From Amycolatopsis sp. 2-15 (GTDB taxonomy: Bacteria > Actinomycetota > Actinomycetes > Mycobacteriales > Pseudonocardiaceae), in the NCBI RefSeq assembly GCF_030285625.1, contig NZ_CP127294.1, positions 7,534,001 through 7,598,000 on the forward strand: a stretch of DNA of 64,000 nt. The letters run 5' to 3'. The notes beneath the pieces are model-generated. The model did no database searches, was not told the origin of the DNA, and worked only from the letters and a program-made list of their open reading frames with translations. Position numbers and translations under genes: made by a program. Below are positions 9,047-46,277 of this stretch, piece after piece (the stretch's first letter is position 1; every line of letters begins with the position of its first letter).

Positions 9047-9826
9047 TCAGTGAACTGTTTCGTGGTCGGTTCTCTCCGCGAGCAGGTGGTGCCACGCCTC
9101 GGCCCGAGCGAGGTCAGCCGTGGTGAACGGCGAGCCCGCCCACGCGGACACCGGACGAATACCGTGCAGCGCGTTGAGCGTCCACACGTCGGCTCCGGCC
9201 AGCTCGGCCGGGGTGGACAGTTCGGGCCGGAACTCGATCCCGCGCTGCGCCGCGAGCGCGAGCACCTCCGCGCGAGTGACGCTCGGCAGGATCGCGGCGG
9301 TCTCCGGCGGGCCGCACAGGACTTCGCCACGCCACCACAGCAGGCTCGTCGTGCTGCCCTCCAGCACGTGTCCCTCTCGTGACAGCAGCACGGCCTCGTT
9401 CGCGCCCGCCTCCGTGGCAGCGTCACGCAGCTGTGCGAGCGACGTCAGGTCCGGGCCTTTCACCCGGGGCCTGGTCCGCCCGTCCGGCGATGGGGAAACC
9501 CACAGCCGCACGGTCTCCCCGCGCGGCGGGGCGGGGCGCAGCCAGAGGGTCAGCTGCGGATTTCCCTCAGGCGACGCCATTTCCACCCGGGGGAACCACC
9601 GGCCGGCCGAGGGGATCCGCTCCTGCACGGCGTCGAGGAACGTCCGCACCCGGTCGGGCCGCAGTCGCGGACACGCGGCGGTGAACCGTGCGGTGTGACG
9701 GTCGAAAGCGCGCGTCCGCCCGTCGTCGACCAGCCACGAGTCGACGACCTCGGGACGGAACGACCGGGTCTCCGGCACGAACCGCTCCGAGTCCCCGAGC
9801 CAACGCAGCCAGAATGAGTCCCTCAT
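9047..9826 (-). CDS. Class IV PLP enzyme, aminodeoxychorismate lyase-like
   Basis: Fold-type IV PLP protein of 259 residues, related to branched-chain aminotransferase / 4-amino-4-deoxychorismate lyase (PabC). The probable PLP lysine is in RVKGPDLTSLAQLRDAA, followed by the GANEAVLL and EGSTTSLLWW blocks that match the cofactor-binding motif. The N-terminus (DSWLVDDGRTRAFDRHTARF) is typical of the short actinomycete subgroup. The start is ATG 9826 with GGGAGGG upstream, overlapping the type II thioesterase stop by 1 base, so it is the last gene of the PKS operon. Its role in the polyketide is unclear: it could make an aromatic amine precursor or aminate the product. No PabA/B partner is present in the window. 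Confidence 0.75.
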   Translation of the reverse strand: MRDSFWLRWLGDSERFVPETRSFRPEVVDSWLVDDGRTRAFDRHTARFTAACPRLRPDRVRTFLDAVQERIPSAGRWFPRVEMASPEGNPQLTLWLRPAPPRGETVRLWVSPSPDGRTRPRVKGPDLTSLAQLRDAATEAGANEAVLLSREGHVLEGSTTSLLWWRGEVLCGPPETAAILPSVTRAEVLALAAQRGIEFRPELSTPAELAGADVWTLNALHGIRPVSAWAGSPFTTADLARAEAWHHLLAERTDHETVH

Positions 9827-10575
9827 CAAGCCCTCCCATGCCGTGACGCGACCAGGTCGACGATCCTCGACGCGTGGTCCACGACGAAGAAGTGACCGCC
9901 GGGGAACTCGACCAGCTCGCAGGGCGCCGTAGTATGCGTCGCCCAGTCCTGGGCCTCGGCGACGGTCGTGTGTGGATCGTCCGTGCCGATCAAGGCGGTG
10001 ATGGGTGAATCCAGCGGCTTGCCCGCGTCGAAGCGGTAGGTCTCGACCGCGCGGTAGTCGGCGCGCACGGCCGGCAGGATCATGGCCCGGATCTCCGGTT
10101 CGCGCAGCAGCCGGGTGTCCGTGCCGCCGAGGGATTCGATTTCCGCGACCAGGCCGTCGTCGTCGAGTCGGTGAACGCGACCGGGCCGGCTCAGTGCGGG
10201 CGAAGGGCGGCCGGACGCGAACAGGCGGACCAAGCGGAACCGCGGGTCGTCGGCCAGCCGGCGCGCCACCTCGAACGCGACGACGGCGCCCATGCTGTGC
10301 CCCAGGAACGTCAGCGGACGGTCCAGGATTCCGTCCATGGCCGCGGAAATGCCGTCGGCCAGGTCGCTGATCCGGTCCATCGGCGGTTCGTGGCGCCGAT
10401 CCTGACGCCCGGGGTACTGCACGGCCACTACGTCGACGTCCGGGGCCAGCGCCAGTGCCATCGGTTTGAAGAAGGGCGCGGAGCCGCCCGCGTGCGGAAA
10501 GCACACCACCCGGTGGTCGGCTCCTGCGGCGCCGGCGAACCGCCGGAACCACAGGCCCTCGTCGGTCGAGGTCAC
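9826..10575 (-). CDS. Type II (editing) thioesterase
   Basis: Stand-alone RifR/TEII-type thioesterase of 249 residues that hydrolyses wrong or stalled acyl groups from carrier-protein arms. Motifs: CFPHAGGSA (25-33, oxyanion region), GHSMG (92-96, nucleophile Ser94), the acid in [10 protein letters not shown] and the histidine in PGGHFFV. The length is normal for the class. GTG 10575 overlaps the stop of module 6 by 4 bases (GTGA), so it is coupled to the PKS. An editing function would matter here, because several module defects predict stalled intermediates. Confidence 0.9.
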
Positions 10576-13500
10576 GCGCTCTCCTCCCCTGCATCAGCCT
10601 GCTTCTCGTCGAGCCAGGCGAGAACCGCGCGTGCCGTGACGTCGACGGTTCTCTCCATGATCTCGTAGTGGTCGCCGAGGGCGTCGGCCGTTCGCGACAC
10701 CGACTCGAACGACGCCTGCCAGTCGCCGGTCATGCCGCGCATCGGCTTCGTGGCCCGGACGAGGAGCGACCGGAACGGCACCGGCGCCGGTTTCCAGTCC
10801 GCGAAGGTCTCGAAGTACCAGGTGTGGGCCGAAAGCCGGGTCCCGTTGAGCGGCGCGGCCGGATTTTCCCGCTCCCGCATGTGCTCGAACACTTCGCGCT
10901 GGAAGTCGGCGAAGTACTTGTTCCCGTCGTTGATCTCGTAGGTGTCGACGAAGACGATGCCCTCGGGCGCGCTGCCGCGGTCGGCGAGGACCAGCGCCAG
11001 CTCGTGCGCCAGGATCCCGCCCGACGAGTATCCACCGAGGAAAAACGGCTTGCCGTCGGCATACTTCGCGGCGGCCTCCGCGAGCACCTCGATCACGGAT
11101 TCCCGGCCGACCGGCAGCTTCTCGCCTTCGGCGAATCCCGGCAGCTCGAAGGACGAGACGACAGCGCCCGGCAGCGCCGCGGCGAACCTCGTATACAGGT
11201 GAGCGCCGGTCAAGGCGACCAACGGCGGCACCAGGATCAGCCGCGGACCGGAACCCGGCGGTGACAGCGGCACGATCCGTACCCCATCGTCCAGTTCGGA
11301 CGCCGTGCTGAACGTCGGGCGGAGCTTCGCGACGGTGCGCGCGAGCTCGACCCCCTCGTCCACTCGCCCGGTGTCCACCGCGGACCAGAACGCTTGGCCG
11401 AGGACGTCGAACGAACCCGCGCCGGCGGACACGGGGCTCGCCTTCGTGGTGCCGACAACGCCGCTCAGGTATTCCGCCAGTTTCGCGGGACTCTCGTGGT
11501 CGAAGATCACGGTCGCCGGCAGCCGCAGCCCGACGAGCTTGCCGAGCCGGTTGCGCAGCTCGATCGAGGTGAGCGAGTCCATGCCGAACTCCTCGAACGG
11601 CACGGTGAGCTCGATGTCGTCCGGTGACCCGTGCCCGAGCACCTCCGCCAGCTGGGCGCGGACCAGGTCGGCCAGCGCCCCGATCCGGTCGCCGGAGTCC
11701 ATCGTGGAGAGTTCTGGGGCCTCGGCGCCGGCTCGTGCCGGTGGCGGGGTGACCAGCGACTCGAGCAGCCGATACGGCCGGGTGGACCGTGCCGTGTCGT
11801 CGAGCCGCGTCGCGGCGACGAGTGCTTCGTCGACGGTCACGGCCCGGTCGAACAACGCGAACCCTTGCGCCGCGGTCATCGGCGCCAGGCCCGCGCTCGC
11901 CAGGCGCTGCAAGTCCTGACGGGACAGGGTGCCGGTCATGCCGCCTTGCTCCGACCACGCCCCCCAGGCCAGCGAAAGGGCCGGAAGGCCCTGCGCCCGC
12001 CGGTACTGGGCGAACGCGTCGAGGACGGTGTTGGCGGCGGCGTAGTTGCCCTGCCCGGCCGCGCCCAGCAGGCCCGACAAGGAGGAGAACATGACGAAGG
12101 CGGACAGCTCGGTGCCCCGGGTGAGCTCGTGCAGGTTCCACGCGCCCCGCACCTTGGGCGCCAGCACCCGGACGAGCGCTTCGGGGGTCAGCGACTCGAT
12201 CGTCGCGTCTGCCAGCACACCAGCGGCGTGCACGACCGCGGTCACCGGCCCGTGGTCGGCCAGGACCCCGGCCAGCTCGGCCCGGTCGGCGACGTCGCAG
12301 GCCGCCATCGTGACCTCGGCACCCAGGTCGGTCAGCTCGGCCAGCAGCTGCGCCGCACCCGCCGCCCGCGCGCCTTGCCGGCTGAGCAACAACAGGCGGT
12401 CCGCGCCGCGGTGACTCACGAGGTGCCGGGCGAGTGCGGCGCCCAGTCCGCTGGTACCACCCGTGATCAGCACCGTTCCGCGCTTCCAGCGCTCGGGATC
12501 CGATGGCGTTTCGGAGGCCCGCTCCAGACGCGGGACTACGATCCGGTCACCGCGGACGGCGAGCTGAGGTTCCGCGGTGGCGAGGGCGGCGGCCAGCACG
12601 GCGGGCGAGGGCGGCGTGTCGTGGTCGAGGAGGACGAAGCGGTCCGGGTGCTCCGCCTGGGCCGACTTGACCAGCCCCCACACCGCGGCGGCGGCCAGGT
12701 CCGGGCTCGGTTCGGATTCGGTCGTCCGGACGGCGTAACGGGTCTGGAACACCAGCCGGGTGTCGGACAGTCCGGGGTTCGCCAGCCAGGAACGCAGCAG
12801 GTCCAGTACCTCGACCGTGCCCGTGTACACGGCCTCGACGATGTCGTGGTCCGGGTCGGTGCCGCGCTCGTACAAGGGAACCAGCACCGCGTCCGGGGCC
12901 GTGCCGACGAGGTCCGCCAGCTCGATCGCATCACGCACCCGGACCACGTCGAGTTCGCGGCCGGGGTGGGTGTCGACGCCGACCCAGCCCAAGCGGAGGA
13001 GTGCACCTTCCTCGGATGCTCCGGTGTGGACGGTCGGTGCGGGGACGTCCGGCCAATAGCGCCGGCGTTGGAACGCATACGTCGGCAGGTCGATGCGACG
13101 GCCTCGGACCCCGATCACCGCGGGCCAGTCCACGTCGATTCCCGCGACATGCAGGTGCGCGACGGCGGCGACAGCTCCGGCGGCCTCGTCCCGGTCCTTG
13201 CGGACCGCGGCGACGACGGTCGTCTGCTCCGGATCGAGGTCGGAGTGGATCATCGGGGACAGGGTGCTGCGAGGTCCGGCTTCGAGGAACACCGTGGTGC
13301 CGTTTTTGTGGAGCGTGGTGACACCGTCGGCGAAGCGCACCGGCTCGCGCACGTGCCGGACCCAGTAGTCCACAGTGGTCACGTCACCACCGGCCACAGT
13401 GGACACCAGGGGAATGACCGGCTCGTGGAACGTCATCCCCCCGATCGCCGCGCGGAACCCGTCCAGCATCGGATCCATGCGAGCCGAGTGGAACGCGTGG

Positions 13501-15737
13501 CTGACCCGCAGCCGCGAAGTCCGGTAACCTCGCTCCCCCAGCACGCGGCGGAGATCCTCGATCGTGTCCTCAGCCCCGGACACCACCACAGCCTCCGCGG
13601 CGTTGACGGCCGCGATGTCGACCTCGTAGCCGACCAGGACGGGTGCGAGTTCGGTTTCACCGGCCGCGACGGCCAGCATGGCCCCGCCGCCCGGCAAAGC
13701 CTGCATCAGATTGGCCCGCGCCGCGACCAGCGTGCACGCGTCCTCAAGAGAGAACACACCGGCCACGTGAGCCGCGCTGATCTCACCGATCGAATGCCCC
13801 ATCAGAAAATCAGGCCGAACCCCCCACGACTGCAGCAGGCGGAACCACGCGCTCTGCCAGGCGAACAACGCAGGCTGCGTATAACCCGTCCGATCCAGCG
13901 AATCCGCGTCCGCGAACATCACCTCACGCAACGCGTGTTCGCCCGCCAACAACGGATCCAGCAACGCACACACCTCAGCCAAAGCTTCAGCGAAAACCGG
14001 GAACCGAGCCGACAACTCACGACCCATCCCCACCCGCTGCGCGCCCTGCCCGGAAAACGTCATCGCGACGCGGCCCACGGCCCCCGTCGCCCCGGATACC
14101 ACAGCCGGATCGGTCGTACCGGCGGCCAACGCCTGCAGCCCCGACAGCGCCTCGGCCCGGTCCGCGGCCACCACCACCGCGCGATGACCGAAACTCGTGC
14201 GCGTGGTCGCCGACGACCACGCCAGGTCCGCCACTCCGACCTCAGGACCCCGCTCCAACACCGACCTCAGCCGGCCTGCCTGGTCACGCAGAGCCTCCTC
14301 AGACCGGCCCGACACCAGCACCGGCCTCGGCGCACCGTCATCCGGCGTCGCCGCCAACTCGGCAGACTCGGGTGCCTGCTCGAGAACGACGTGGGCGTTC
14401 GTGCCACTGATCCCGAACCCCGACACCCCCGCCCGCCGCGGCCGGCCCGTCTCCGGCCACGGAACCCGCTCGGTCAGCAACCGCACCGACCCGGCGCTCC
14501 AGTCCACATGGGTGGTGGGCCGGTCCACGTGCAGCGTCTGCGGCAAGACGCCGTGGCGCATGGCCTGGGTCATCTTGACGATGCCCGCGATCCCCGCCGC
14601 GGCTTGCACGTGCCCGATGTTGGACTTCACCGACCCGAGCCACAGCGGATGCCCTTCCTCCCGCCCCTGCCCTAAGGTGGCGAGCAGCGCCTGGGCCTCG
14701 ATGGGATCCCCGAGCCGGGTGCCGGTGCCGTGGGCTTCGGCGGCGTCGATCTCCGCCGAGGTGAGTCCGGCGTTGGCCAGCGCGTCACTGATGACCCGTT
14801 GCTGGGCCGGGCCATTGGGGGCCGTGAGCCCGTTGGACGCGCCGTCCTGGTTGATCGCCGAGCCCCGCACCACCGCCAGCACCCGGTGCCCCAGCTCCTG
14901 CGCCCGCGACAACCGCTCCACGACCAGGACGCCGGCGCCCTCGGCGAAACCGGCACCGTCCGCGGCGTCGGCGAACGACTTGCACCGGCCGTCGGGCGCG
15001 AGTCCGCCTTGGAGGGAGAAGTCGATGAACACCTCCGGCGTGGACATGACCGAGACACCCCCGACCAGCGCCAGATCGCACTCGCCGAGGCGCAGGGACT
15101 GGGTGGCCCAATGCAGGGCGACCAGTGACGCCGAGCACGCGGTGTCCACCGTGACCGCGGGTCCTTCCAGCCCCAGCAGATAGGCGACGCGCCCCGACAG
15201 CACGCTCGACGAGCTGCCGGTGAGCAGGTAGCCCTCGAGCTCGTCGCGGGCCTTCAAGGAGGTGTGGACGTAGTCCTGCGAGTTCGATCCGACGAACACT
15301 CCGGTCCGGGTGCCGCGCAGCACTTCGGGTTTGATGTCCGCTCGTTCCAGGGCTTCCCAGGTGGTCTCCAGCAGCAGCCGCTGCTGGGGGTCCATCGCCG
15401 TCGCCTCACGCGGGGGGATGCCGAAGAACCCCGCGTCGAACTCGGCGGCGTCGTGGAGGAAACCGCCCCGCCCGGTGGCCGATCCCCCGGCGCGCAAGCC
15501 CGCCGCGTCCCAGCCGCGGTCGGTGGGGAAGTCTGATGTCACGTCCCGGCCGCCGAGGACGACGTCCCACAAGTCCTCGGGTGAGGTCACCTCGCCGGGG
15601 AACCGGCAGCCCATTCCGACGATCGCGATCGGTTCGCGCAGGCCGGATTCGGTCTCGTGCAGGCGGTCCCGCGTCTCACGCAGCTCCGCGATCGCCCGCT
15701 TCAGGAAGTGCCGGAGCTTTTCCTGCTCGTCGCTCAT
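10572..15737 (-). CDS. Type I PKS, module 6 with terminal thioesterase
   Basis: Last PKS protein, 1721 residues: N-terminal docking coiled coil ([20 protein letters not shown]...), KS, AT, KR, ACP, TE. The KS has the normal cysteine (VDTACSAS) and both His motifs ([22 protein letters not shown]). The AT has GHSIGE and HAFH, predicting malonyl-CoA. The KR has [10 protein letters not shown], an LAD motif and catalytic Ser/Tyr/Asn (FSSLSG...NYAAAN), and looks active. There is no DH. The ACP has GMDSLTS. The TE has GYSSGG (nucleophile Ser) and GDHYEIM (His) and releases the chain, probably as a lactone. The ATG has GGAGGAG 5 nt upstream and lies 16 bp after the previous gene, so the operon is continuous. 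Confidence 0.95.
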
Positions 15738-15753: not shown

Positions 15754-18700
15754 TCAGGAAATCCCGAATTCCTTGCCCATGAGTTCGAACAGCTGGTCGT
15801 CGGTGGCCTCGTCCAGGGCCGCGCCGGATTCCGGCTCTTCGGACCGCCATTCGCTCAGCAGCTGCTGCAACCGGTCGGTGATCAGCGCTCGCTCGGACAC
15901 GTCCACCTCGACGGAGCGCAGGTCCGATTCCAGTGCTGCCACCTTGCCCAGCAGAACCGAGTTCTCGGGCCGGCCGGCCTCGCCGAGCAGCTCTTCGAGC
16001 AGGTGCTGGGCGAGGTCGGTGGGGGTCGGGTAGTCGAAAACGAGAGTCCGGGGCAGATCCAGCCCCGTGGCCATGCTCAGGATGTTGCGCAGCTCGACCG
16101 CGGTGAGCGAGTCGAAGCCCAGATCACGGAACGCCCGGTTCTCCGGGATCGGAACAGAATCGGTGTAGCCGAGCACGGCCGCGAGCTGGATCCGCACGAG
16201 GTCGAGGACCGCCCGCACCTGGTCAGCGTGGGACAGGCCGGTCAACCGGCTCCGCAGCCGGACCGCCGGGTCGAGAGCAAGACCGGCTTCCGGTTGCGCC
16301 GCCGACTGGTTCACCTCGGGCAGATCGCCGAGCAGCGCGCTCGGCCGGGCCGCGGTGAAGATGGCCAGGAACTGCTTCCAGTCCACATCGGCAATCACGG
16401 CGCTGGTGTCGCCGCGTTCGAGCGCCCGGCGCATTCCCTCCACGGCCATGGCCGGCGAGATCCCGATCAGGTCGAAGGTGCGAAGGCTGCGCCGCGTCGC
16501 GCCCTCTCCGCGGCCGTCGCAGGCAATGGACGTGGCGGGAAGTCCTCGCGCCCGGCGGTGGTGAGCCAGCCCGTCGAGGTACGCGCCGGCCGCCGCATAC
16601 GTGCCGAGCCCGACCCCGCCCACGGTCCCGATGACCGACGAGACCATCACGAACATCGCCAGGTTCAGCTCCGCGGTGAGCTCGTGCAGCACCACGGCGG
16701 CATCGACCTTCGGCCGGAACACCGTGGCCAGCTCCTCGCGGGTCACGCCGTCGATGGTCCCGCCCTGCAACACGGCGGCCGTGTGCACGACCCCCGCCAA
16801 CGGGTACTCCGCGGGAATCGCGGCGATCGTCTTCGCCATCGCTTCCCGGTCGGCGGCGTCGCCCGCCACGAAGGTCACCCGCGCGCCGAGCGCATCCAGC
16901 TCCGCCGCCAGATCCTGCGCACCCGGTGCGAGTGATCCCCGGCGGCTGACGAGCACGAGGTGCGGCACCCCGCCCGTGGCCAGCCACCGGGCGGTCTGGG
17001 CACCCAGCGCGCCCGTCGCACCCGTGACCAGCACACTCCCGCCGGTGGGAAACTCCCACGTGGGGTCCTGGACCGGATCGATCGCCCGGTGAACCAGCCG
17101 CCGGGCCCAGAGCCCCGACGGACGCACCGCCAGCTGGTCCTCCTGCCCGCCGCCGGACACCAGGACCTCCACGACCTGCTCGGCTACGGTGTCCGGATCG
17201 GCGACATCGGGGGCATCGGGGACGTCGATCAGGCCGCCCCAGCGCTGGGCGTGTTCCACCGCCGCGGTCCGGCCCCAGCCCCACACCGCGGCCTGCGCCG
17301 GCCGCGAAACCTCCCGCGAGTCGTCGACGGCGACCGCGCCCCGGGTCACACACCATGTCGGCGCCGGCACAGCGGCGTCTCCCAGCGCCTGAATCAGCAC
17401 TGCCGTCAGCGTCAGTCCCACCGGGACGCGACTGTCCTCATCGGACGTTTCGTCCTGCCAAGCCAGGAATGACACCACGCCGGTCGGCTCCTCGCCGGTG
17501 TGCTCCCCGAGCGTCTTGATCCGCGCGGCCAGCGCTTCCCGGTCGGCGTCGTCCGGCTCGACCACCGTCGTGGTCACCGTCCCCCCCGCGCCGGCCAGCT
17601 GCCGGTTCAGGCCGGCGATCACCGGTGAGCCGGCGTGCCCGGCCGGCACGAACAGCCACCACGAACCGGTTGTCCCCGTCGGCTCCGGCTGCGACACCGG
17701 TGCCCACGTGACCTCGTACCCGGCACCGGCCAACGTGGCTTGGTCCTCCTGCCGTCGGCGCCAGGACGACAAAGCCGGCAACAGCGGTGCCAACGACGAT
17801 TCCTCGAGGGCCAGCTCGGCCGCGAGCCGGGTGGCGTCCCCCTCGTCGACAGCGGCCCAGAACTCGGCGTCCACCTCCGATCCCGGGTGGACAGTGTCCG
17901 GCTCCGCCGGGATCTCGGGCCAGTAGCGCTGGTGCTGGAACGCGTACGTCGGCAGGTCGACCGTGCGCCCTCCGGAGAAGACCGCGGACCAGTCGACCTC
18001 CACTCCCGCGGTCTGCAGAGTGGCCAGCGAGGTCAGCAGCCGGTGCGCGGTTCCCTGGCCGCGACGCAGGGTGCCGGTCACGACGGCTCCCGCCGCGACG
18101 GCCTCGGCGGTCTCGCCGAGGGGGACGGTCGTGACCGGGTGCGCGCTCACCTCGACGAAGGCGTGGTGCCCCTCGGCGAGCAAGGTCCGCACGGCGGGTT
18201 CGAACAGCACGGGCCGCAGCGCGTTCCGGTACCAGTATTCGGCGTCCAGCTCGGCACCGTCCAGCCAGGTCGCGTGCACGGTGGAGAAGAACCTGAGGTC
18301 CCCGCTGCGCGGCGCGACCGGCGCGAGCAGCTCCAGCAACTGCTCCCGGTACGGTGCCACGCGTTCGCAGTGCGTCGGAATCGACGCCGGTACCCAGCGG
18401 GCCCGGATTCCAGCGGCCTGACAGTCCGCCATGAACCGGCGCAGTGTCTCGGTGTCACCGGCGACGCCGACCGAGGTGGGCCCGTTGATCCCCGCGATGG
18501 CGAGGCCGTCGACGAGGCGCTGCCGGACTTCGTCCACCGGCAGGGACACCAGGGCCACACCGCCGTCGCCGACCATCGCGGAAAGCACCTGGCTGCGCAC
18601 GGCGATCACGCGGGCACCGTCCTCGAGGGACAGCGCGCCGGCGAAACAGGCGGCGGCGATTTCGCCCTGGCTGTGCCCGATCACGGCGTCCGGTTCGACC

Positions 18701-20520
18701 CCGTAGGACCGCCACACCTTCGCCAGCGAGAGGTTCATCGCCCACAGCACGGGCTGGACCACGTCGAGACGCTCCAGCATCTCCGCGCTGTCGGTACCGG
18801 TGAGCAGATCGGTCAACGACCAGGAAATCCACGGCGCCAAGGCGTCCTGACACTCCTGAATGGACTCCCGGAAAACCACCGACGTCTCCAGCAGCTCCCG
18901 GCCCATCCCGGCCCACTGCGAACCCTGACCGGGGAACACGAACACCAGTCCCCCGGACCCCGTCACCTCACCCGTCACCACAGCCGGTCCCGGCTCGCCC
19001 GCGGCGAGCGCCCGCAGCCCGGACAACGCCTCCTCCCGATCGGCGGCCACCACCGCCGCGCGGTGATCGAACGCCGAGCGTGTCGTGGCCAGCGACCACG
19101 CCACGTCGGACACGACCAGATCGGCGTGACGTTCGACGAACTCGACCAGCCGGGCCGCCTGCTCCCGCACCGCCGGCGCGGACTGCCCCGAAACCACGAC
19201 CGGCACCGGTACATCCGTGACGGCGGTGGCCGCCGGTTCCTCCTGCACAGGCGCCTGTTCCAGGATGATGTGGGCGTTGGTGCCGCTGATCCCGAACCCC
19301 GACACACCCGCGCGCCGCGGCCGTCCGGTCTCCGGCCACGGGATCTGCTCGGTCAACACCCGCACCCCACCGTCGGCCCAATCCACGTGCGTGGTGGGCT
19401 CGTCCACGTGCAGAGTCCGCGGCAGGACGCCGTGCCTGATGGCCTGGACCATCTTGATGATCCCGGCGGCTCCGGCCGCGGCCTGGGCGTGGCCGATGTT
19501 GGACTTCACCGACCCGATCCACACCGGATGGCCGTCCTCGCGCCCCTGCCCCACCGTCGCCAGCAACGCGTGTGCCTCGATCGGATCACCCAGCCGCGTG
19601 CCCGTGCCGTGCGCCTCCACGGCGTCGATCTCCCCCGGCAACACTCCGGCACGGGCCAGCGCGTCCTTGATCACCCGCCGCTGGGAAGACCCGTTCGGCG
19701 CGGTCAACCCGTTCGACGCGCCGTCCTGGTTCATCGCCGAGCCCCGTACGACCGCGAGCACCCGGTGCCCGCGTTCCCGCGCCGTCGACAACCGCTCGAC
19801 CGCGAGCACACCGACACCTTCGGCGAACCCGGTGCCGTCCGCCGTCTCGGCGAACGCCTTGCACCGCCCGTCCACCGACAGCACCTTCTGCCGGCTCAGG
19901 CCGACGAAGACCCGCGGCTGGGACATCACGGAGACGCCGGCGACGACCGCCATGTCGCACTCACCGGCCCGCAACGACTGCGTGGCCAGGTGCAAGGCCA
20001 CCAGCGACGACGAGCACGCCGTGTCGATCGTGACCGCGGGACCTTCCAGCCCCAGCGCATAGGCGATCCGCCCGGACATCACGCTCGAGGTGCTGCCGGT
20101 CAGCAGGTGGGCTTCCAGCTCGTCCCTGAGCGAGCTCTTCTCGTCCAGGTAGCCGTAGTGGGAGGCGCCGACGAAAACACCGGTGCGGCTTCCCTTGAGC
20201 GTACGAGGATCGATACCAGCCCGTTCGAGGGCTTCCCAGGTGGTTTCGAGCAGCAGACGTTGCTGCGGGTCCATCGCCAGCGCCTCTCGCGGCGAGATCC
20301 CGAAGAACCCGGCGTCGAACTCCGCGGCCTCGTAGAGGAACCCACCCACCAGGGTGTCCGAGTCGCCGTCGCGCAGCGCGGCCAGATCCCAGCCCCGGTC
20401 CGTGGGGAAACCGCCGATCACGTCACGGCCGGACGCGACCAGATCCCACAGGTCTTCCGGCGAGCTCACCCCGCCGGGGTAGCGGCAGCCCATCCCCACC
20501 AGCACGACCGGGTCGTCGTC
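15754..20520 (-). other. Module 5: KS-AT(IPTH)-KR(degenerate)-ACP
   Basis: [18 protein letters not shown], but IPTH (18381-18370) replaces YASH, so the extender is uncertain (ethylmalonyl possible). KR: cofactor site [10 protein letters not shown], Ser and Tyr present, but the Asn after Tyr is Gly (TYAAAG, codon 16587-16585). The usual AWGTW block reads ACDGRG and is about 6 residues shorter. Probably no reduction. ACP: GFDSLTA. Confidence 0.85.
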
Positions 20521-23500
20521 GCGGGGCGCCAGGACCGGAGACTCCGCGTCGGTCGCGGCCGGGTCGGCCACCAGGTCCGCGAGCAGGGCCTCGGACAGCA
20601 GGGCGGTCGTGGGGTTGTCGAAGGCGATGGTGGGCGGCAGCCGCAGGCCGGTGAGCTCGTTCAAGCGGTTGCGGAGCTCGATCGAGGCCAGCGAGTCCAG
20701 GCCCAGGTCCTTCAACGCCTGCGTGGGCTGCACCTGATCCGGCCTCGCGTGGCCGAGCACGGCGGCGACTTCGGCGCGAACCAGCTCGGTCAGCCGGCGG
20801 AGCCGGTCGGCCGGCGGCATGGCCGAAAGCCGTTGGGCCAGCGAGGCGCCGGCCGGAGTCGTCGCCGCGGCGACTCGTGCGGGTGTGCGCGTGATGAGGG
20901 CGTCGAGCAGGCGGGACGACTGCGCGGACACCGCGGCGCGGTCGAGCCGGGTGGCGGCCAGCACCGGTTCGTGCGCGGACATCGCCCGGTCGAACAGCGC
21001 GAGACCCGCCTCGATGCTCATCGGCGGGAACCCGGCACGAGCCATGCGCTGGAGGTCCGCCTCGGACAGCGTGCTGGTCATGCCCGTTTGCTGCGACCAA
21101 GCACCCCAGGCCAGTGACACGGCCGGCAGGCCGTGGGCGCGCCGGTGGGAAGCCAGGGCGTCGAGGAACGAGTTGGCCGCCGCGTAGTTGCCCTGGCCGG
21201 CCGCACCCAGGAGACCGGCCATGGACGAGAACGTGACGAACGCCGACAAACCGGCGGCTCGGGTCAGGTCGTGCAGGTTCCACGTGCCGCGAACCTTGGG
21301 TTCCAGGACCCGCGCGAGTGCTTCGGGCGTCAGGGACGTGATCGTCGCGTCCGCGAGCACCCCCGCGGTCTGCACGACGGCGGTCACCGGATGGGCGGCC
21401 AGCACGGCGGCCAGTTCGGCCCGGTCGGCGATGTCGCAGGCCGCGACAGTGACGTCGGCGCCCAGTTCGGTGAGTTCCGTCTGCAGGGCCGCGGCGCCGG
21501 GTGCTTCCGGGCCGCGCTTGCTGATCAGGAGCAGCCGCTGGGCGCCGCGTGCGGTCACCAGGTGCCGCGCGAGAGCGGCACCCAGGCCGCCGGTCCCCCC
21601 GGTGATGACCACGGTTCCCCGCGCCCACAGGTCCGCCGCCGGCTCCGGCGTCGACGCCGGAACCAGCCGGGGCACGGTGACGCGATTCTCGCGGATCGCG
21701 AGCTGCGGTTCCGCCGCGGCGAGAGCCGTGGCCAGCCGGGCTCGGGTCAGCGAGTCGTCGTGGTCGACGAGAGTGAACCGGTTCGGGTGTTCGGTCTGCG
21801 CGGACCTGACCAAGCCCCACACCGCGGCGGCGGCGAGATCCGTGACGGGCTCGCTGTCGTCGGTGCTGACGGCGTTGCGGGTCAGGAACACCAGCCGCGC
21901 GTCGCTGGACTCCGGCCGGGTCAGCCACGCCTGCACCAGATCGAGCACCGCCGTGGTGACCGCCGGCACCTCGGCGGTGACGTCCTCCCCTCGGCCCCGC
22001 ACCGGAACCAGCACCACGTCCGGGACGCCGGCGCCGACCAGTTCGTCCAGGCTGCCCACGACGTCCGCGCCAAACGGGTCGTCGGGGAGATCCGCGAGAT
22101 TCCCGTCCAGCATCACCCAGCTCGCCGAGGGCACCTCGGTGGCCGTCTCCGCGACCGTCCACTCCAGACGGAGCAGCGTGCCCGGTGCGGCCTCGGTCAC
22201 CTGATCGGCGGTGATCGGTCGCAGCACCAGAGATTCGAGCGTGACCACGGAGGTGCCGACCGGATCGGTGGCCTCGACGGAGACCGTGTCCGGACCGGTC
22301 GCCCTCAGCCGGACCCGGAGCGTGGTCGCACCGGCCGCGTGCACGGTGATGCCGGCGAACGAGAACGGCATCCGGCCGCGCTCGACCGGCGCCAGCGGAG
22401 CGAACACGCTGGCCTGCAAGGCCGCGTCCAGCAAAGCCGGGTGCAGACCGAACCGGCCGACCTGTTCCCGCGCACTCGAGGGCAAAGCGACCTCGGCGAA
22501 CACCTCGTTCCCGCGCGTCCAGGCCGATTGGAGGCCTTGGAACACCGGTCCGTAGTCGAAGGCCGATTCCCCGGCCACGCCGGCTTGCTCGTAGAACCCG
22601 TCCAGCGCCACCGCGACGGCGTCCGCCGGCGGCCACGCCTGGTCGGCCCAGCCCATCACGGCGTCGGCCGTCGTGGTCGTGACCGTCGCGCTCGCGTGCC
22701 GGGTCCACGGCTGATCCGCCGCGGTACGCGAGTACACCGAGACCGGCCGTTCGCCATCGTGCTCAGGCGCACCCACCAGCACCTGCAGATCGATCCCGTC
22801 GTGCTCGGGCAGAACCAGCGGCTCGTGCAGAGTGAGGTCGCCGACCCGCGCGCACCCCACCGCCACCCCGGCGTGGCCGACGAGCTCCACAAAAGCCGTT
22901 CCCGGAAGGATCACCACCCCGTTCGCGGCGTGGTCGGCCAGCCAGGAATGCGTGTCCACCGACACCCGGCCGCTGAACACCTGACCGTCCACTCCGGGCA
23001 ACGCGACGCCGGCACCCAGCAACGGATGGTCCACCACATCCAGCCCGGCCGCGCCCACGTCACCCGCGGGCACCACGACACCGGGCCAGAACCGCTCATG
23101 CTGGAACGCATACGTCGGCAACCCGACCCGGCGGCCCTCGGCGTTCATCCCTGTGAACACCGCCGGCCAGTCGAGGTCGGCCCCCGCCGTGTGCAGGTGC
23201 GCGAGGGCGGTGACGGCTCCGGTGATCTCGTCCTGGTCCTTGCGGACCGCGGGGATCACGGCCGAGTCTTCGGAGTCGAGGGTGGTGTGGATCATCGCCG
23301 AAAGGGCGCTGCTCGGCCCGCCTTCGACGAACACGGCGGCGCCTTGGCTGTCCAAGGTGGACACCCCGTCGGCGAAGCGCACCGGTTCGCGGACGTGCCG
23401 GACCCAATAGTCCACAGTGGTCACTTCGCGACCGGCCACGGCCCCGGTCAGGTTGGAGACCAACGGGACCACCGGCTCACTGAAGGAAATCCCCCCGATC

Positions 23501-25806
23501 GCCGCACGGAACCCGTCCAGCATCGGATCCATGCGAGCCGAGTGGAACGCGTGGCTGACGCGCAGCTGCGTGGTCTTGCGCCCCTGGTCCCTCAGCACCG
23601 CACCCAGGCCCGCGACCGCGTCCTCGTCTCCGGAGAGCACCACACTGTGCGGAGCGTTGACGGCCGCGATGCAGGCTCCGTCGACGCCGTTCAGCAACGA
23701 CTCGATGTCGGCTTCGCCGGCCGCGACCGCGAGCATGGCCCCGCCGCCCGGCAAAGCCTGCATCAGATTGGCCCGCGCCGCGACCAGCGTGCACGCGTCC
23801 TCAAGAGAGAACACACCGGCCACGTGAGCCGCGCTGATCTCACCGATCGAATGCCCCATCAGAAAATCAGGCCGAACCCCCCACGACTGCAGCAGGCGGA
23901 ACCACGCGGTCTGCCAGGCAAACAGCGCAGGCTGCGTATAACCCGTCTGATCCAGCAGAGCCGCTTTCGCGGAACCCGCCTCGGCGAACATGACTTCCCG
24001 CAACGCCGTCTCGCCCGTCAGCTGCGGGTCCAGCAGCGCGCACACCTCACCCAGCGCCGCGGCGAACACCGGGAACCGGGCCGACAGCTCACGACCCATC
24101 CCCGCCCGCTGCGCACCCTGCCCGGAGAACACCACGGCCAGCCGGCCCAGGTCGCGGGCCAGGTTCGACACCACGGCCGAATCGGCCGTGTCGTCGGCCA
24201 GCGCCCGCAGGCCCGACAGCACCCCGGCGCGATCCGATGCCACCACGACCGCGCGATGGTCGAAACTCGAGCGGGTCGTCGCCGACGACCACGCCAGATC
24301 AGCCACCGTCAGCTCCGGATCGCGGTCCACCCAGGTCGCCAGCCGGTCGGCTTGGTCACGCAGAGCCCGCTCCGACCGGCCCGACACCAGCACCGGCCTC
24401 GGCGCGCCGTCATCCGGCGTCGCCGCCAACTCGGCGGACTCGGGTGCCTGCTCGAGAACGACGTGGGCGTTCGTGCCACTGATCCCGAACCCCGACACCC
24501 CCGCCCGCCGCGGCCGGCCCGTCTCCGGCCACGGAATCTGCTCGGTGAGCAGCCGCACGTCACCGGCACTCCAGTCCACGTGCGTGCTGGGCCGGTCGAC
24601 GTGCAGGGTCTTCGGCAGGACGCCGTAGCGCATCGCCTCGACCATCTTGATGACACCCGCCACCCCGGACGCGACCTCGGTGTGCCCGATGTTGGACTTC
24701 ACCGAGCCGATCCACACGGGACGGCCTTCTTCTCGCCCCTGCCCCAGAGTGGCGAGCAAAGCCTGGGCTTCGATGGGATCCCCGAGCCGGGTGCCGGTGC
24801 CGTGGGCCTCGACAGCGTCGATCTCCAGCGGCGACACTCCGGACCGGGCGAGCGCGTCGCGGATGAGGCGTTGCTGCGACGGGCCGCTGGGAGCGGTCAG
24901 GCCATTGGACGCGCCGTCCTGGTTCACCGCCGAACCCCGCACCACCGCCAGTACCCGATGGCCGAGCTCCTGCGCGGTGGACAACCGCTCGACCACGATC
25001 ACGCCGACGCCTTCGGCCCACCCGGTGCCGTCCGCGGCCTCGGCGAACGACTTGCACCGGCCGTCCTCGGCCAGGCCGCCGTGGCGCGTGAACTCGACGA
25101 ACACGTCCGGTGTGGACATGACCGTCACGCCGCCCACCAGCGCCAGATCGCTTTCGCCCAGCCGCAGGGACTGCGCGGCCAGATGCAACGCGACCAGCGA
25201 GGACGAGCTCGCGGTGTCCACGGTGACGGAAGGTCCTTCCAGCCCCAGCAGGTAGGAGATGCGCCCCGACAGCACACTCGACGTGCCGCCGGTCAGCCGG
25301 TAACCCTCGAGGCCCGGGGCCTTGGCGGTCTTCTCCTCCAGGTAACTGCGAGTGGTGCCGCCGACGAAGACGCCGGTCCGCGACTCCTTCAGCGATCCGG
25401 CCGGAATCCCGGCTCGTTCGAGCGCTTCCCACGCCGTTTCCAGCAGAATTCGCTGCTGCGGGTCCATCGCGAGCGCTTCGCGCGGCGAGATCCCGAAGAA
25501 CGCGGCATCGAACTGTGTGGCGTCGTAGACGAACCCGCCCAGCTGGGTCGCCGAACCACCGTTGCGCAACGCGGCCAGGTCCCAGCCACGGTCCGTGGGG
25601 AAACCCGCGATCGCGTCACGGCCGGAAACCACCACGTCCCATAGGTCGTCCGGTGAATTCACCTCACCCGGGAAACGGCACGCCATCCCGACGATGGCGA
25701 GCGGTTCCCGCGTCGCCGACTCGACTTCGGTGAGCTGCCGGCGAGTCTGGAGCAGCTCTTCGGTGGCCCGCTTGAGGTAGTCGCGAAGCTTTTCTACGTC
25801 TGACAT
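15754..25806 (-). CDS. Type I PKS, modules 4 and 5
   Basis: Bimodular PKS of 3350 residues: docking helix ([20 protein letters not shown]), module 4 (KS-AT-DH-KR-ACP), module 5 (KS-AT-KR-ACP) and a C-terminal docking segment ending [16 protein letters not shown]. The sequence deviates from consensus at several functional sites. KS4 has Ser instead of the catalytic Cys (codon AGC at 25209-25207). AT5 has IPTH where methylmalonyl ATs have YASH. KR5 has Gly in place of the tetrad Asn, and a shortened, altered loop. All other catalytic motifs, including DH4 and KR4, are intact. The ATG at 25806 is preceded by CAGGAG, and the gene follows the three-module gene by 38 bp. Confidence 0.95.
20521..25806 (-). 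other. Module 4: KS(Cys to Ser)-AT(malonyl)-DH-KR-ACP
   Basis: The KS active site reads VDTASSSS; the nucleophile codon is AGC at 25209-25207. The His motifs ([22 protein letters not shown]) are kept. AT: GHSIGE and HAFH, malonyl. [14 protein letters not shown] and [21 protein letters not shown] and FSSMAG...NYAAAN. If the KS condensed, a double bond would result. Confidence 0.88.
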
Positions 25807-25844: not shown

Positions 25845-40634
<14,790 letters not shown>

Positions 40635-40963
40635 CCCCTCAGCGACGCGGGCGTGATGTTCGCCCGTTCCAGTGCCTCCCAGCTCGTTTCGAGCAGCAGC
40701 CGCTGCTGGGGGTCCATGGCCAGCGCTTCCCGGGGCGAGATCCCGAAGAAGGCCGCATCGAACTCGGGAGCGTCGTAGAGGAACCCGCCCAGCTGAGTCG
40801 CGGAACCACCCTCGCGCAACGCGGCCAGGTCCCAGCCGCGGTCGGTCGGGAACCCGGAGATGACATCCCGGCCGGCGGCGACCACGTCCCAAAGGCCTTC
40901 GGGCGACGTGACCCCACCCGGGAACCGGCACCCCATCCCGACGATGACGATCGGGTCGTCGTC

Positions 40964-43900
40964 CCCGGCCGCGACGGGCCGGACGGGCACGACTTCCGAG
41001 CTCCGGAAGCCGAGGTCGATCTCGATACGCTCACTGAGCTGCGCCGCCGTCGGATGGCTGAAGATCTCGGTGGTGTTCAGCCGCGATCCGAGAGCTTTGT
41101 TCACCCGATCCCTGAGCTCGACCATCATGATCGAGTCGAACCCGAGATCCTTGAAGGTGCGGCGGTCGTCGACCTGTCGCCAGTTCCGCTGCCCCAGCAC
41201 GGCGGCGGTCTCGCGAGCCACCACGTCACGCACGGCCATCGACGGTTCCCGCGGCGGCTCATCGGGGCTGCTCGCCCCCGCCGCCGTGACGACGGGCGCG
41301 GGTACCGGGCTGGTCGACGCAGCCAGCCAGTAGCGCTCGCGCTGGAACGCGTAGGTCGGCAGCGCGACCCGCCGGCCCCGCACGCCGATTCCGGCGAACA
41401 CCTCCGGCCAGCCGAGCTCGATCCCCCCGACCCACAGGCTCGCCAGTGACGTCAGGAACCGGTGCGGCGAATCCTGGTCACGGCGCAAGGTCCCGGTCAC
41501 GACGGCCGGCACCGCGGCCGCGTCGACCGTTTCCGCGATCGGCACCGTGGTCACCGGATGCGGGCTCACCTCGACGAACGCCCGGTGTCCCTCGGCCAGC
41601 AAGGTGGCGATGGCCGGCTCGAAGAGGACGGTCTGGCGCAGGTTCCGGTACCAGTACCCGGCATCCAGGTCCGTGCCGCGGATCCACTCGGCGTCCACGG
41701 TCGAGAAGAACGGCACCTCCGCGAGCCGGGGCTCGATCGGCGCCAGGGCCTCGAGCACCTCGTCGCGGACCTGGTCGACCTGCGGAGAGTGCGAGGCGTA
41801 GTCGACCTCGATCCGACGCACCCGGATGTCTCGCCCGGCCAGCTCCGTCCGCAAACGCTCCAGCGCCGCCGGTTCGCCCGCGACCACCACGGAGCCGACG
41901 GCGTTGACCGCGGCCAGCGACACCTGCCCGCCGTACTGGTCGAGCCACTCCCGAACCTCGTGCCGGGACAGGCCCACCGACAGCATGCCGCCGCGCCCGG
42001 CCAGGGCTCGCAGCGCCCGGGCCCGCAGGGCCACCACTCTGGCACCGTCCGAAAGGGATAGTGCTCCCGCCACGCACGCCGCGGCGATCTCTCCTTGGCT
42101 GTGGCCGACGACCGCGTCGGGCCGGACGCCGCAGGAGCGCCACAGGCGGGCCAGGGAGATCATGATCGCCCACAACGCGGGCTGGACCACGTCGACCCGG
42201 TCCAGTTCGGCGCCGTCGGCGCCGGTCAGCACCTCGGTCAACGACCAGGACACCCAGGGCGCCAATGCCTCCTGGCACTCGAGCATCGACTCCCGGAACA
42301 CGGACGAGGTTTCCAGCAGACCCCGGCCCATGCCCAGCCATTGTGAGCCCTGCCCGGGAAACACGAACACCACTCCATCGGACGGTGCCGCCACGCCGGT
42401 CACCACTGCCGGATCCGGCTCACCGGCCGCCAACGCCCGCAGCCCCGACAGTGCCTCGGCCCGGTCACCGGCCACGACCACGGCCCGATGGTCGAAGGCC
42501 GACCGCGTGGTCGCCGAGGACCAGGCGAGATCCGCCAGCGCCGGTTGCGGATCCCGGCTCAGCGCGTCCGCAAGCCGGGCCGCCTGCTCGCGCACCGCCG
42601 CCTGAGACCGGCCCGACACCACCAGCGGTAGCACCGCGTCGGAAGGCGGAGCCTCGGTGTGGTCGGTCGACGGTGAACCCGCGCTCGGCGACGACAGAAC
42701 GACGTGGCAGTTCGTCCCGCCCACGCCGAACGACGACACACCCGCCAGCAGCGCCCCGTCGGCCTCCGGCCACGCGTCGGTGGACTGCACAACCCGAAGG
42801 TTCCAGTCGTCGAACAGGATTTCCGGGTTGGGCTGTTCGAAGTTCAGGCTCGCGGGCAGGCGCCGATTCCGCACCGCCAGCGCCGTCTTCAGCAGCCCGA
42901 CGATGCCGGCAGCGCTTTCCAGGTGCCCCACGTTGGTCTTCGCCGAACCCACCCACAGCGGGGTGGTCCGGCCCTCGCCCAGAGCCGCGCCGAGCGCGCG
43001 GGCCTCGACCGGGTCGCCGACCATCGTGGCGGTCCCGTGCAGCTCCACGTACCGCACGCGCCGCGGATCCACGCCGGCCCGCCGGTACGCCGCGCGGAGC
43101 AACGCCTCCTGGGCCTCGGAGCTCGGCCGCGTGAACGACTCACCCGGGCCTTCGTTGTTCACCGCGCTGCCCAGCACGACGGCGTACACGTCGTCGCCGT
43201 CTTCCAGGGCAAGGGAAAGCGGCTTGAGCACGACGAAACCGCCGCCCTCGCCGCGCACGTAGCCGTTCGCGCGGGCGTCGAAGGTGAAACATCGGCCGTC
43301 CGGGGACAGGCCACCGAACCGCGCGGCGGTGACAGCGTTATCACCCGCCAGGTTCAGCTGGATGCCGCCCGCCAGGGCGAGTTCCGACTCGCCGGACCGG
43401 ATGCTCTCGGCCGCGAGGTGCACCGCGACCAGCGACGACGACTGCCCGGTGTCCACGGCCAGGCTCGGCCCGGTGAACCCGAACGCGTAGGACATCCGGT
43501 TCGGGATCATCCCGTTGTGCAGGCCGGTCAGGCTGTGGTGCCCGATCGCCGCCGGGCCCTGGCGCAGGCTGAGCAGCTCGTAGTCCGACGCCATCGCACC
43601 GGCGAAGATCCCGACCCGGCGCTCGCGCAGGTGCGCCGGCACGATCCCGGCGTCCTCGAGCGCTTCCCAGCCCAGTTCGAGAGCCATCCGCTGCTGCGGG
43701 TCCATGACCGCGGCTTCGCGTGGCGAGATCCCGAAGAACTCCGCGTCGAACCGGTCCACCTCGTCGACGAAGCCGCCGTACCGCAGGAGCTCGGTATCGG
43801 GCTCGGCCAGATCCGTCCAGCGACCGGCCGGCACCGGCGTGATGCCGCTGCCGCCGGAGCGGAGCAACTGCCAGAACTCACGCAGGTTCGACGCCTTCGG

Positions 43901-43969
43901 CAGCCGGCACGACATGCCGACGATGGCGATCGGGTCGTCCTCGATGTCGGACCCCGACGAATTCACCAC
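40964..43969 (-). other. Loading module: KSQ-AT(methylmalonyl)-ACP
   Basis: KSQ (VDTGQSSS) keeps both His motifs (ELHGTATMVGDP, NVGHLESAAG), so it should decarboxylate but not condense. The AT motifs GHSQGE and VDYASH predict methylmalonyl. Predicted starter: propionyl-ACP. Confidence 0.88.
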
Positions 43970-44822: not shown

Positions 44823-46277
44823 ATGGTTGCCGAAAGTTTCAGTGTGGTGAACAAGAGCTGGACGTCGGACGCGATCTCCACGATGGTCGATCTACGGGAA
44901 ACCGCGCGGGCGCGCGCGGAAATCGCCGCGGCCAGCCAGCACGCCCGCGACAAGCTCACCGCGCGGGAACGCCTCGATCTGCTCCTGGACCCCGGGTCTT
45001 TCCTCGAGGTGGGCAGCTTCGTCCGGACCCGGTCCACCAGTCTCGGGCAGGGCCGCGACCGCCCGCTCGGCGACGCGGTCGTCGTCGGGCAAGGCACGGT
45101 GCACGGCCGTGAGGTGTGTGTCTTTTCCCAGGACTTCACTGTGTTCGGGGGAAGTCTCGGCGAGGTGGTCGGCGAGAAGATCGCCAAGGTCATGGACATG
45201 GCGATGCAGGCCGGCGTGCCGATGATCGGCATCAACGACAGCGCGGGCGGCCGGATCCAGGAGGGTGTGGTCGCGCAGAGTCTCTACGGTGGCATTTTCC
45301 GCCGCAACGTCCGCATGTCCGGCATGGTGCCGCAGATATCGCTGATCCTGGGGCCGTGCGCGGGCGGCGCGGTCTACTCGCCCGCGATCACCGACTTCGT
45401 GGTCATGGTCGAGCACACGGCGCAGATGTTCCTCACCGGGCCGTCGGTCCTGCGCGAAGCCCTGGGCGAGCAGGTGTCGGCCGAGGAACTGGGCGGCGCG
45501 CTGGTACACCACACCCGTTCGGGTTCCGCCCACCACATCGCTGCTACCGAGGAAGGCGCCATCGCCTACGTCCGGGACCTGCTCACCTATCTGTCCACTG
45601 AGGATGCTCGGACCAGAGTGCCACCTGAGCAGCGGCGTGATCACGCCCTCGACGACGTCATCCCCGGCGCCGAGCAGGCCTACGACGTCCGCCGGATCCT
45701 CGACCGCGTGCTCGACGGCGGAGAGCTGCTGCCCGTCCACGAGGGCTTCGCCCCCAACATCGTCACCTGCTTCGGCCGCCTCGGCGGCCGCAACGTAGGC
45801 GTCGTTGCCAACCAGCCGGCCGAGGCCGACGGACAGCTCGACGAGAACGCCAGTATCAAGGCCGCGCGGTTCATCCGCACCTGCGACGCCTACGGCATCC
45901 CTGTGCTGACCTTCGTCGACACCCCGGGCTTCACCGCCACGCCGAGCCAAGAACAACAGGGAGCGATCCGGCGGTTCGCGACGCTGCTGTACGCCTACGC
46001 TGAAGCGACTGTCCCCACTCTCACCGTGATCATCCGCCGCGCGGAGGGCATCGGATACGTCGCGATGAGCTCCCGGCACCTCGGCGCCGACCTCTGCCTG
46101 GCCTGGCCCACGGCCGTCGTCGACGGAAAACCGCCCTACGAAGCAGCCGAGCGCGGGTTGATCGACGAGGTCATCGACCCCGCGACCACCCGCGAACGGC
46201 TGCTGCGCGCCCTCCGCCTGCTCGACACAAAGAAGGCCGACGCCCCGATCCGCAAGCACGACAACCTGCCGCTCTAG
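44823..46277 (+). CDS. Acyl-CoA carboxylase beta subunit (PccB-like, internally shortened)
   Basis: Carboxyltransferase (crotonase fold) of 484 residues that moves CO2 from biotin to an acyl-CoA; propionyl-CoA to methylmalonyl-CoA is plausible given the PKS next door. Seen: DKLTARERLDLLLD (46-59 region), the GGRIQEG and GPCAGGAVYSPAITDF N-domain blocks, and FVDTPGF and LLYAYAEATVP in the C-domain. Two oddities: the second oxyanion motif, usually GGAY, reads GIGY; and the stretch normally between the AWPT block and YxAAERG (MGAEGAAN... to HPYYAAERG, about 45 residues) is missing, replaced by VVDGKPP. No biotin carboxylase or epsilon subunit is nearby, so it would depend on subunits encoded elsewhere. 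Confidence 0.85.
   Translation: MVAESFSVVNKSWTSDAISTMVDLRETARARAEIAAASQHARDKLTARERLDLLLDPGSFLEVGSFVRTRSTSLGQGRDRPLGDAVVVGQGTVHGREVCVFSQDFTVFGGSLGEVVGEKIAKVMDMAMQAGVPMIGINDSAGGRIQEGVVAQSLYGGIFRRNVRMSGMVPQISLILGPCAGGAVYSPAITDFVVMVEHTAQMFLTGPSVLREALGEQVSAEELGGALVHHTRSGSAHHIAATEEGAIAYVRDLLTYLSTEDARTRVPPEQRRDHALDDVIPGAEQAYDVRRILDRVLDGGELLPVHEGFAPNIVTCFGRLGGRNVGVVANQPAEADGQLDENASIKAARFIRTCDAYGIPVLTFVDTPGFTATPSQEQQGAIRRFATLLYAYAEATVPTLTVIIRRAEGIGYVAMSSRHLGADLCLAWPTAVVDGKPPYEAAERGLIDEVIDPATTRERLLRALRLLDTKKADAPIRKHDNLPL

Follow-up and report, generated by a model that had tools for sequence, protein, structure and literature searches.

A conserved serine in place of the catalytic cysteine in a mid-line extension ketosynthase of an Amycolatopsis polyketide synthase

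A 64,000-nucleotide stretch of the genome of Amycolatopsis sp. 2-15 (contig NZ_CP127294.1, 7,534,001 to 7,598,000; hereafter the window, with positions counted from its first letter) carries on its minus strand a type I polyketide synthase (PKS) line of three proteins, PKS A, PKS B and PKS C. The ketosynthase (KS) that heads extension module 4 at the start of PKS B, here KS4, has a serine, Ser200, in place of the catalytic cysteine, and an orthologue from another Amycolatopsis strain has the same serine. Judged from sequence comparisons, KS4 may be an evolutionarily fixed, in-line Ser-type extension KS (KSS) in an intact module, still condensing via Ser200; we give this reading a probability of about 45%. 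The wider proposal, that a cis-acyltransferase (cis-AT) PKS would elongate with a Ser-nucleophile KS which selection maintains in two or more Amycolatopsis lineages, with second-shell adjustments at Glu377, Val378, Ser380 and His242, is tentative, with the odds somewhat against it. The positions in KS4 on which the argument turns are the following:

24442..25707, minus strand: KS4 domain, residues 34-455, extension module 4 (Pfam and alignment; PF00109 match 24973-25707)
25207..25209, minus strand: KS4 nucleophile codon, Ser200 (AGC), from translation, with the same Ser in the orthologue P0121
24802..24804, minus strand: codon of catalytic His335 of KS4, by alignment
24682..24684, minus strand: codon of catalytic His375 of KS4, by alignment
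24676..24678, minus strand: codon of Glu377 of KS4, two residues after His375, by alignment and site counts

The plus strand reads GCT at 25207-25209, which gives AGC on the coding strand, the codon for Ser200 of a 3350-amino-acid open reading frame (15754-25806, minus strand). KS4 matches both PF00109 and PF02801 and keeps the two catalytic histidines, His335 and His375. The active site reads VDTACSSS in KS1, KS2 and KS3, IDTACSSS in KS5 and VDTACSAS in KS6; that of the loading KS is VDTGQSSS, making it a KSQ. A sequence-only reading of the window had described a Ser codon in the KS heading module 4, with the His residues intact and Cys in every other extension KS, and translation bears out all of this, the last point for five of five domains (KS1, KS2, KS3, KS5 and KS6).

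Serine at this position is also the oddity which that reading had taken it to be. Among 120 homologues of the start of PKS B, a motif filter returned 433 active sites, with 401 Cys, 32 Gln and no Ser. A similar filter applied to 333 collected related proteins, which include the window's own PKS A (P0125), returned 1217 sites (1165 Cys, 45 Gln, 6 Ala and 1 Ser), and the sole Ser was that of the orthologous KS4. No loading KSS occurred among these 333 proteins, which are long ones owing to the length limits of the search, so that short loading PKSs, where KSS domains are known, lie outside the sample. The six Ala sites (VDTSASSS, near residues 171-179, in P0278, P0298, P0300, P0318, P0323 and P0333) are KSA-type and apparently belong to loading domains, because none lies beyond residue 180 and the proteins are long. 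At the DNA level, a pattern for AGC-Ser KS sites matched in 3 of 390 genomes of the family, namely at the window's KS4 and at two stretches whose translation is not that of a KS; the pattern is incompletely sensitive, its Cys form finding four of the five Cys KSs of the window, and TCN serine codons are not covered. No Ser KS in an extension module was recognised among the papers listed in literature searches, at the level of titles and openings of abstracts, with subscription journals mostly outside the scope.

Over its whole length PKS B is matched best by P0121, a protein of Amycolatopsis sp. NPDC051903 (3335 amino acids, 88% identity at 100% coverage), which has Ser at the same KS4 position. 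It equals the window's KS4 at all 35 compared positions, among them 31 residues that are rare in other KSs (including Glu377, Val378, His242 and Glu141) and Ser380. Read from these two sequences, the KS4 serine is real, and neither a sequencing error nor a fresh mutation. KS4 differs between the strains at 10 of 416 positions (406/416 identical; KS5, 398/416), against 82 of 1248 for KS2, KS3 and KS5 pooled (Fisher p = 0.0007, the pooled domains not being independent samples). No other domain of PKS B is as high in identity; the acyltransferase (AT4) stands at 84.9%, the dehydratase (DH4) at 87.5%, the ketoreductase (KR4) at 91.7% and the acyl carrier protein (ACP4) at 92.1%. Its 31 rare residues are a number reached by 1.3% of Cys KSs, with 30 in KS5, 26 in KS6 and 20 each in KS2 and KS3. 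It departs from 3 of the 121 columns in which 382 Cys KSs agree to at least 97% (C200S, Y354L and Q377E); Leu at position 354 is found in four extension siblings as well, and Val in KS5. Three departures are at the high end, a count reached by 10.5% of Cys KSs, with one or two in KS2, KS3, KS5 and KS6. Decay of KS4 was rejected as an explanation on its better conservation than the Cys siblings, these three departures being noted beside that. A stalled module 4, also suggested by the sequence-only reading, fits poorly with such conservation and with the intact motifs elsewhere in the module.

We placed KS4 in a KS tree of 78 rows, comprising the cluster and its orthologues, nearest and random Cys sites, random KSQ sites and the six Ala sites (its bootstrap had not settled). 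The two Ser KSs branch together (100/100), nested among the extension KSs of this cluster, which form a clade (100/99). The 15 KSQ rows fall on one side of a separate branch (100/100), with KS4 outside their clade. At 37 diagnostic columns, in which KSQ and Cys KSs differ, KS4 agrees with KSQ three times, and Cys KSs do so between 0 and 4 times. On these two grounds an origin of KS4 as a transplanted KSQ was rejected. Stem length is 0.24 for KS4, 0.2 for KS5, 0.22 for KS6 (a single row) and 0.058-0.1 for KS1-3, and the KS4 tips are short, at 0.0014 and 0.027. PKS A has orthologues in NPDC051903 (P0215, one intact frame of 6032 amino acids) and in A. rhabdoformis (P0216). Because the KS1, KS2 and KS3 domains group NPDC051903 with A. 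rhabdoformis against the window (support 99/89, 100/98 and 100/95), a single gain of Ser before the split of the three lineages would be the most parsimonious history, by which A. rhabdoformis should have Ser too. In a DNA search of 80 genomes of the genus, the window's own included, other genomes reached at most 75% identity to KS4, and at most 74% to part of module 1, among the matches listed.

The domains that would have to work with KS4 are these:

25708..25806, minus strand: N-terminal docking helix of PKS B, through which PKS A presumably delivers the chain (PF08990; conserved in P0121)
23227..24141, minus strand: AT4, approximate limits, GHSIG...HAFH, which we take to be a malonyl-type motif (Pfam, alignment and motifs)
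22192..23028, minus strand: DH4 with both catalytic motifs (Pfam and motifs)
21082..21621, minus strand: KR4 with cofactor and Ser/Tyr/Asn motifs intact (Pfam and motifs)
20572..20799, minus strand: ACP4, LGLDSL (Pfam and motifs)

The motifs of AT4, DH4, KR4 and ACP4 are intact in both the window strain and NPDC051903, and the docking ends between PKS A and PKS B are conserved in both, which is consistent with a beta-keto intermediate being made on ACP4. We propose that the chain would be passed from ACP3 of PKS A to KS4 through these docking ends and would acylate Ser200, presumably as an oxyester. The two histidines would then drive decarboxylation of malonyl-ACP4 and, probably, the ensuing condensation, and the new beta-keto group would be processed by KR4 and DH4. 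The Gln377Glu change beside His375, and others like it, might compensate by aiding the weaker Ser nucleophile. Condensation via Ser is our first choice because KR4 and DH4 would otherwise be idle.

Several points weigh against a condensing KS4. A change of Cys to Ser in a KS usually harms condensation. The Ser-type KS4 is known from two sequences only, those of the window and NPDC051903, and PKS B of A. rhabdoformis is absent among the 120 listed matches to PKS B. In contrast to KS1-3, the KSQ domain groups the window with P0215, at weak support (89/44). The strong conservation of KS4 could come in part from gene conversion or a structural role. Position 377 is Glu in 44 of 45 KSQ domains, as in KS4 and its orthologue, and this likeness could point to decarboxylation. 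Loading KSS domains, finally, are described as decarboxylases in two papers (PMC4540446, PMC12843615).

The last two points favour an internal decarboxylase of the KSS or KSQ kind, which would turn malonyl-ACP4 into acetyl-ACP4, making module 4 a second start for modules 5-6 or a mixed start and extension module. We regard this option, which the sequence-only reading had also named, as unlikely, though it is the best placed of the alternatives. It gains from AT4, which looks malonyl-type by the motif given above. The Glu377 match with KSQ is harder to weigh. The residue two after the second catalytic His is Gln at 1121 of 1135 parsed Cys sites and Glu at none (30 further Cys sites were not parsed there), and the four other KS genes examined in the window's genome have Leu, Val or Phe at this position and no Glu. 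The six Ala KSs are likewise without Glu. Two Cys KS domains of 7zma carry it, however, and it is thus not exclusive to KSQ. Because the KSQ domains form one group in the tree, their association with Glu may count as few events; for both reasons we let little rest on this residue. Against a decarboxylase, acetyl-ACP4 would be no substrate for DH4 and KR4, yet neither strain has lost their motifs; docking to PKS A is conserved; and KS4 sits outside the KSQ clade with a count of diagnostic KSQ states that lies in the Cys range. In NysA, moreover, the Ser replacing Cys is reported in PMC4540446 to be less important than Ser413.

Known systems without the usual Cys resemble KS4 in part. The loading KSS domains of polyene PKSs (NysA for nystatin, RimA for rimocidin, and that for natamycin) share with KS4 a Ser in place of the catalytic Cys, and decarboxylation has been proposed for them (PMC4540446 and PMC12843615). 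The distance between Ser170 and Ser413 in NysA, 243 residues, recurs between Ser200 and Ser443 in KS4, a mapping made by spacing alone; Ser443, moreover, is also normal in Cys KSs (375/382). Whereas these KSS domains sit in loading modules (KSS-AT-ACP), KS4 follows a docking helix and heads a KS-AT-DH-KR-ACP module, in a line that starts from a separate loading module with KSQ. KSQ loading decarboxylases, one of which is in this cluster, also lack the nucleophile Cys and have Glu two residues after the second His, but their nucleophile position is Gln and KS4 is outside both their clade and the loading module. DpsC of the daunorubicin pathway is likewise ketosynthase-like with a Ser (Ser-His-Asp), and self-acylates; unlike KS4, it is a free-standing, KSIII-like priming enzyme with an AT-like triad that transfers the acyl group to its ACP (PMC12664062). 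Neither the loading KSS domains nor DpsC are precedents from an extension KS. The Cys extension KSs of actinobacterial cis-AT PKSs (for example DEBS, chains of which are among the best Protein Data Bank matches to KS4 by sequence) share with KS4 the domain families, place in the module, both His residues and clade; KS4 differs in Ser200 for Cys and in Glu377, unseen at the parsed Cys sites. The premise of the sequence-only reading that a Ser KS should not condense normally may be too strong: in PMC12843615, one passage credits loading KSS domains with reduced condensation activity, which speaks against it, while another, which agrees with it, gives decarboxylation only.

A KS4 that does not condense might instead be bypassed, either by skipping of module 4 or by KS3 or KS5 acting on ACP4, with KS4 serving as a scaffold for dimerisation and docking. 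Loss of the usual nucleophile would suit such a role, and type I PKSs are known to skip modules. A scaffold, however, would have no need of both histidines or of conservation above that of its Cys siblings, and a skipped module would be expected to lose its KR, DH and ACP motifs over time, yet these are intact. The sequence-only reading had allowed for skipping of module 4 as well; we consider bypass improbable.

The line as a whole has the following parts:

40544..43969, minus strand: PKS A, first reading frame, with loading KSQ-AT-ACP and the beginning of KS1 (change of frame near 40620-40640)
25845..40931, minus strand: PKS A, larger reading frame, with the remainder of KS1 and modules 1-3 (open reading frame and domain search)
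15754..25806, minus strand: PKS B, with module 4 (KS-AT-DH-KR-ACP) and module 5 (KS-AT-KR-ACP) (open reading frame, Pfam and alignment)
19237..20514, minus strand: KS5, Cys (Pfam and active-site reading)
10572..15737, minus strand: PKS C, with module 6 (KS6 with Cys, AT, KR, ACP) and a thioesterase (Pfam)

Near 40620-40640, where five G stand in a row, a one-base frameshift interrupts KS1 and leaves PKS A in two frames, a feature that the sequence-only reading had not mentioned. Both PKS A orthologues, P0215 and P0216, read through this site, and either an assembly error or a mutation of recent date may account for the frameshift; it has no bearing on Ser200, which another strain has as well. 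In KR5 (16477-16653) the window has TYAAAGA where P0121 has SYAAANA, and both have CDGRGEG at the place of the Trp-Gly motif usual in active KRs. Because of these two features KR5 may be weak or inactive in the window strain.

If the line were dead or decaying in the window strain, Ser200 could be one of several lesions, alongside the KS1 frameshift, the KR5 change and the departures of KS4 from conserved columns. This is very unlikely, since NPDC051903 has the same Ser together with a PKS A in a single intact frame. The frameshift, too, is absent from both orthologues and falls in a run of five G, where assembly errors are common; between the strains KS4 has changed less than KS2, KS3 and KS5; and decay in the window strain, if real, would leave the older Ser unexplained. 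A sequencing or assembly error at Ser200 itself, or the single-base mutation that the sequence-only reading had allowed for, might be suspected from the one base between TGC and AGC and from the apparent frameshift elsewhere in the cluster, but P0121, an independent record from a different strain, contradicts it, and we reject an error as next to impossible.

Three further features of the region were recorded. AT5 (18320-18400) has IPTHC in the window and IATHC in P0121, at the place of the YASH usual in methylmalonyl ATs. Downstream of the PKS genes, a 515-amino-acid protein (9047-10594, minus strand) has a class IV aminotransferase domain in its C-terminal half only; the start of its gene overlaps the stop of PKS C, and the two therefore probably belong to one operon. 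Divergent from the PKS genes, 44823-46277 (plus strand) encodes an acyl-CoA carboxylase carboxyl transferase (PF01039), perhaps a supplier of extender units.

Known KSS domains sit in loading modules, and a mid-line extension KSS would be new. When products are predicted from PKS genes, a KS that lacks Cys is by rule taken to be inactive, or else a loading-module decarboxylase, and a conserved mid-line Ser KS breaks that rule. If KS4 condenses, the Cys of extension KSs would be replaceable in nature, and the partner residues that enable the replacement would be revealed. If it decarboxylates or is bypassed, the line would hold a natural mid-line start or skip. In either case NPDC051903, with its intact first PKS protein, offers a direct test.
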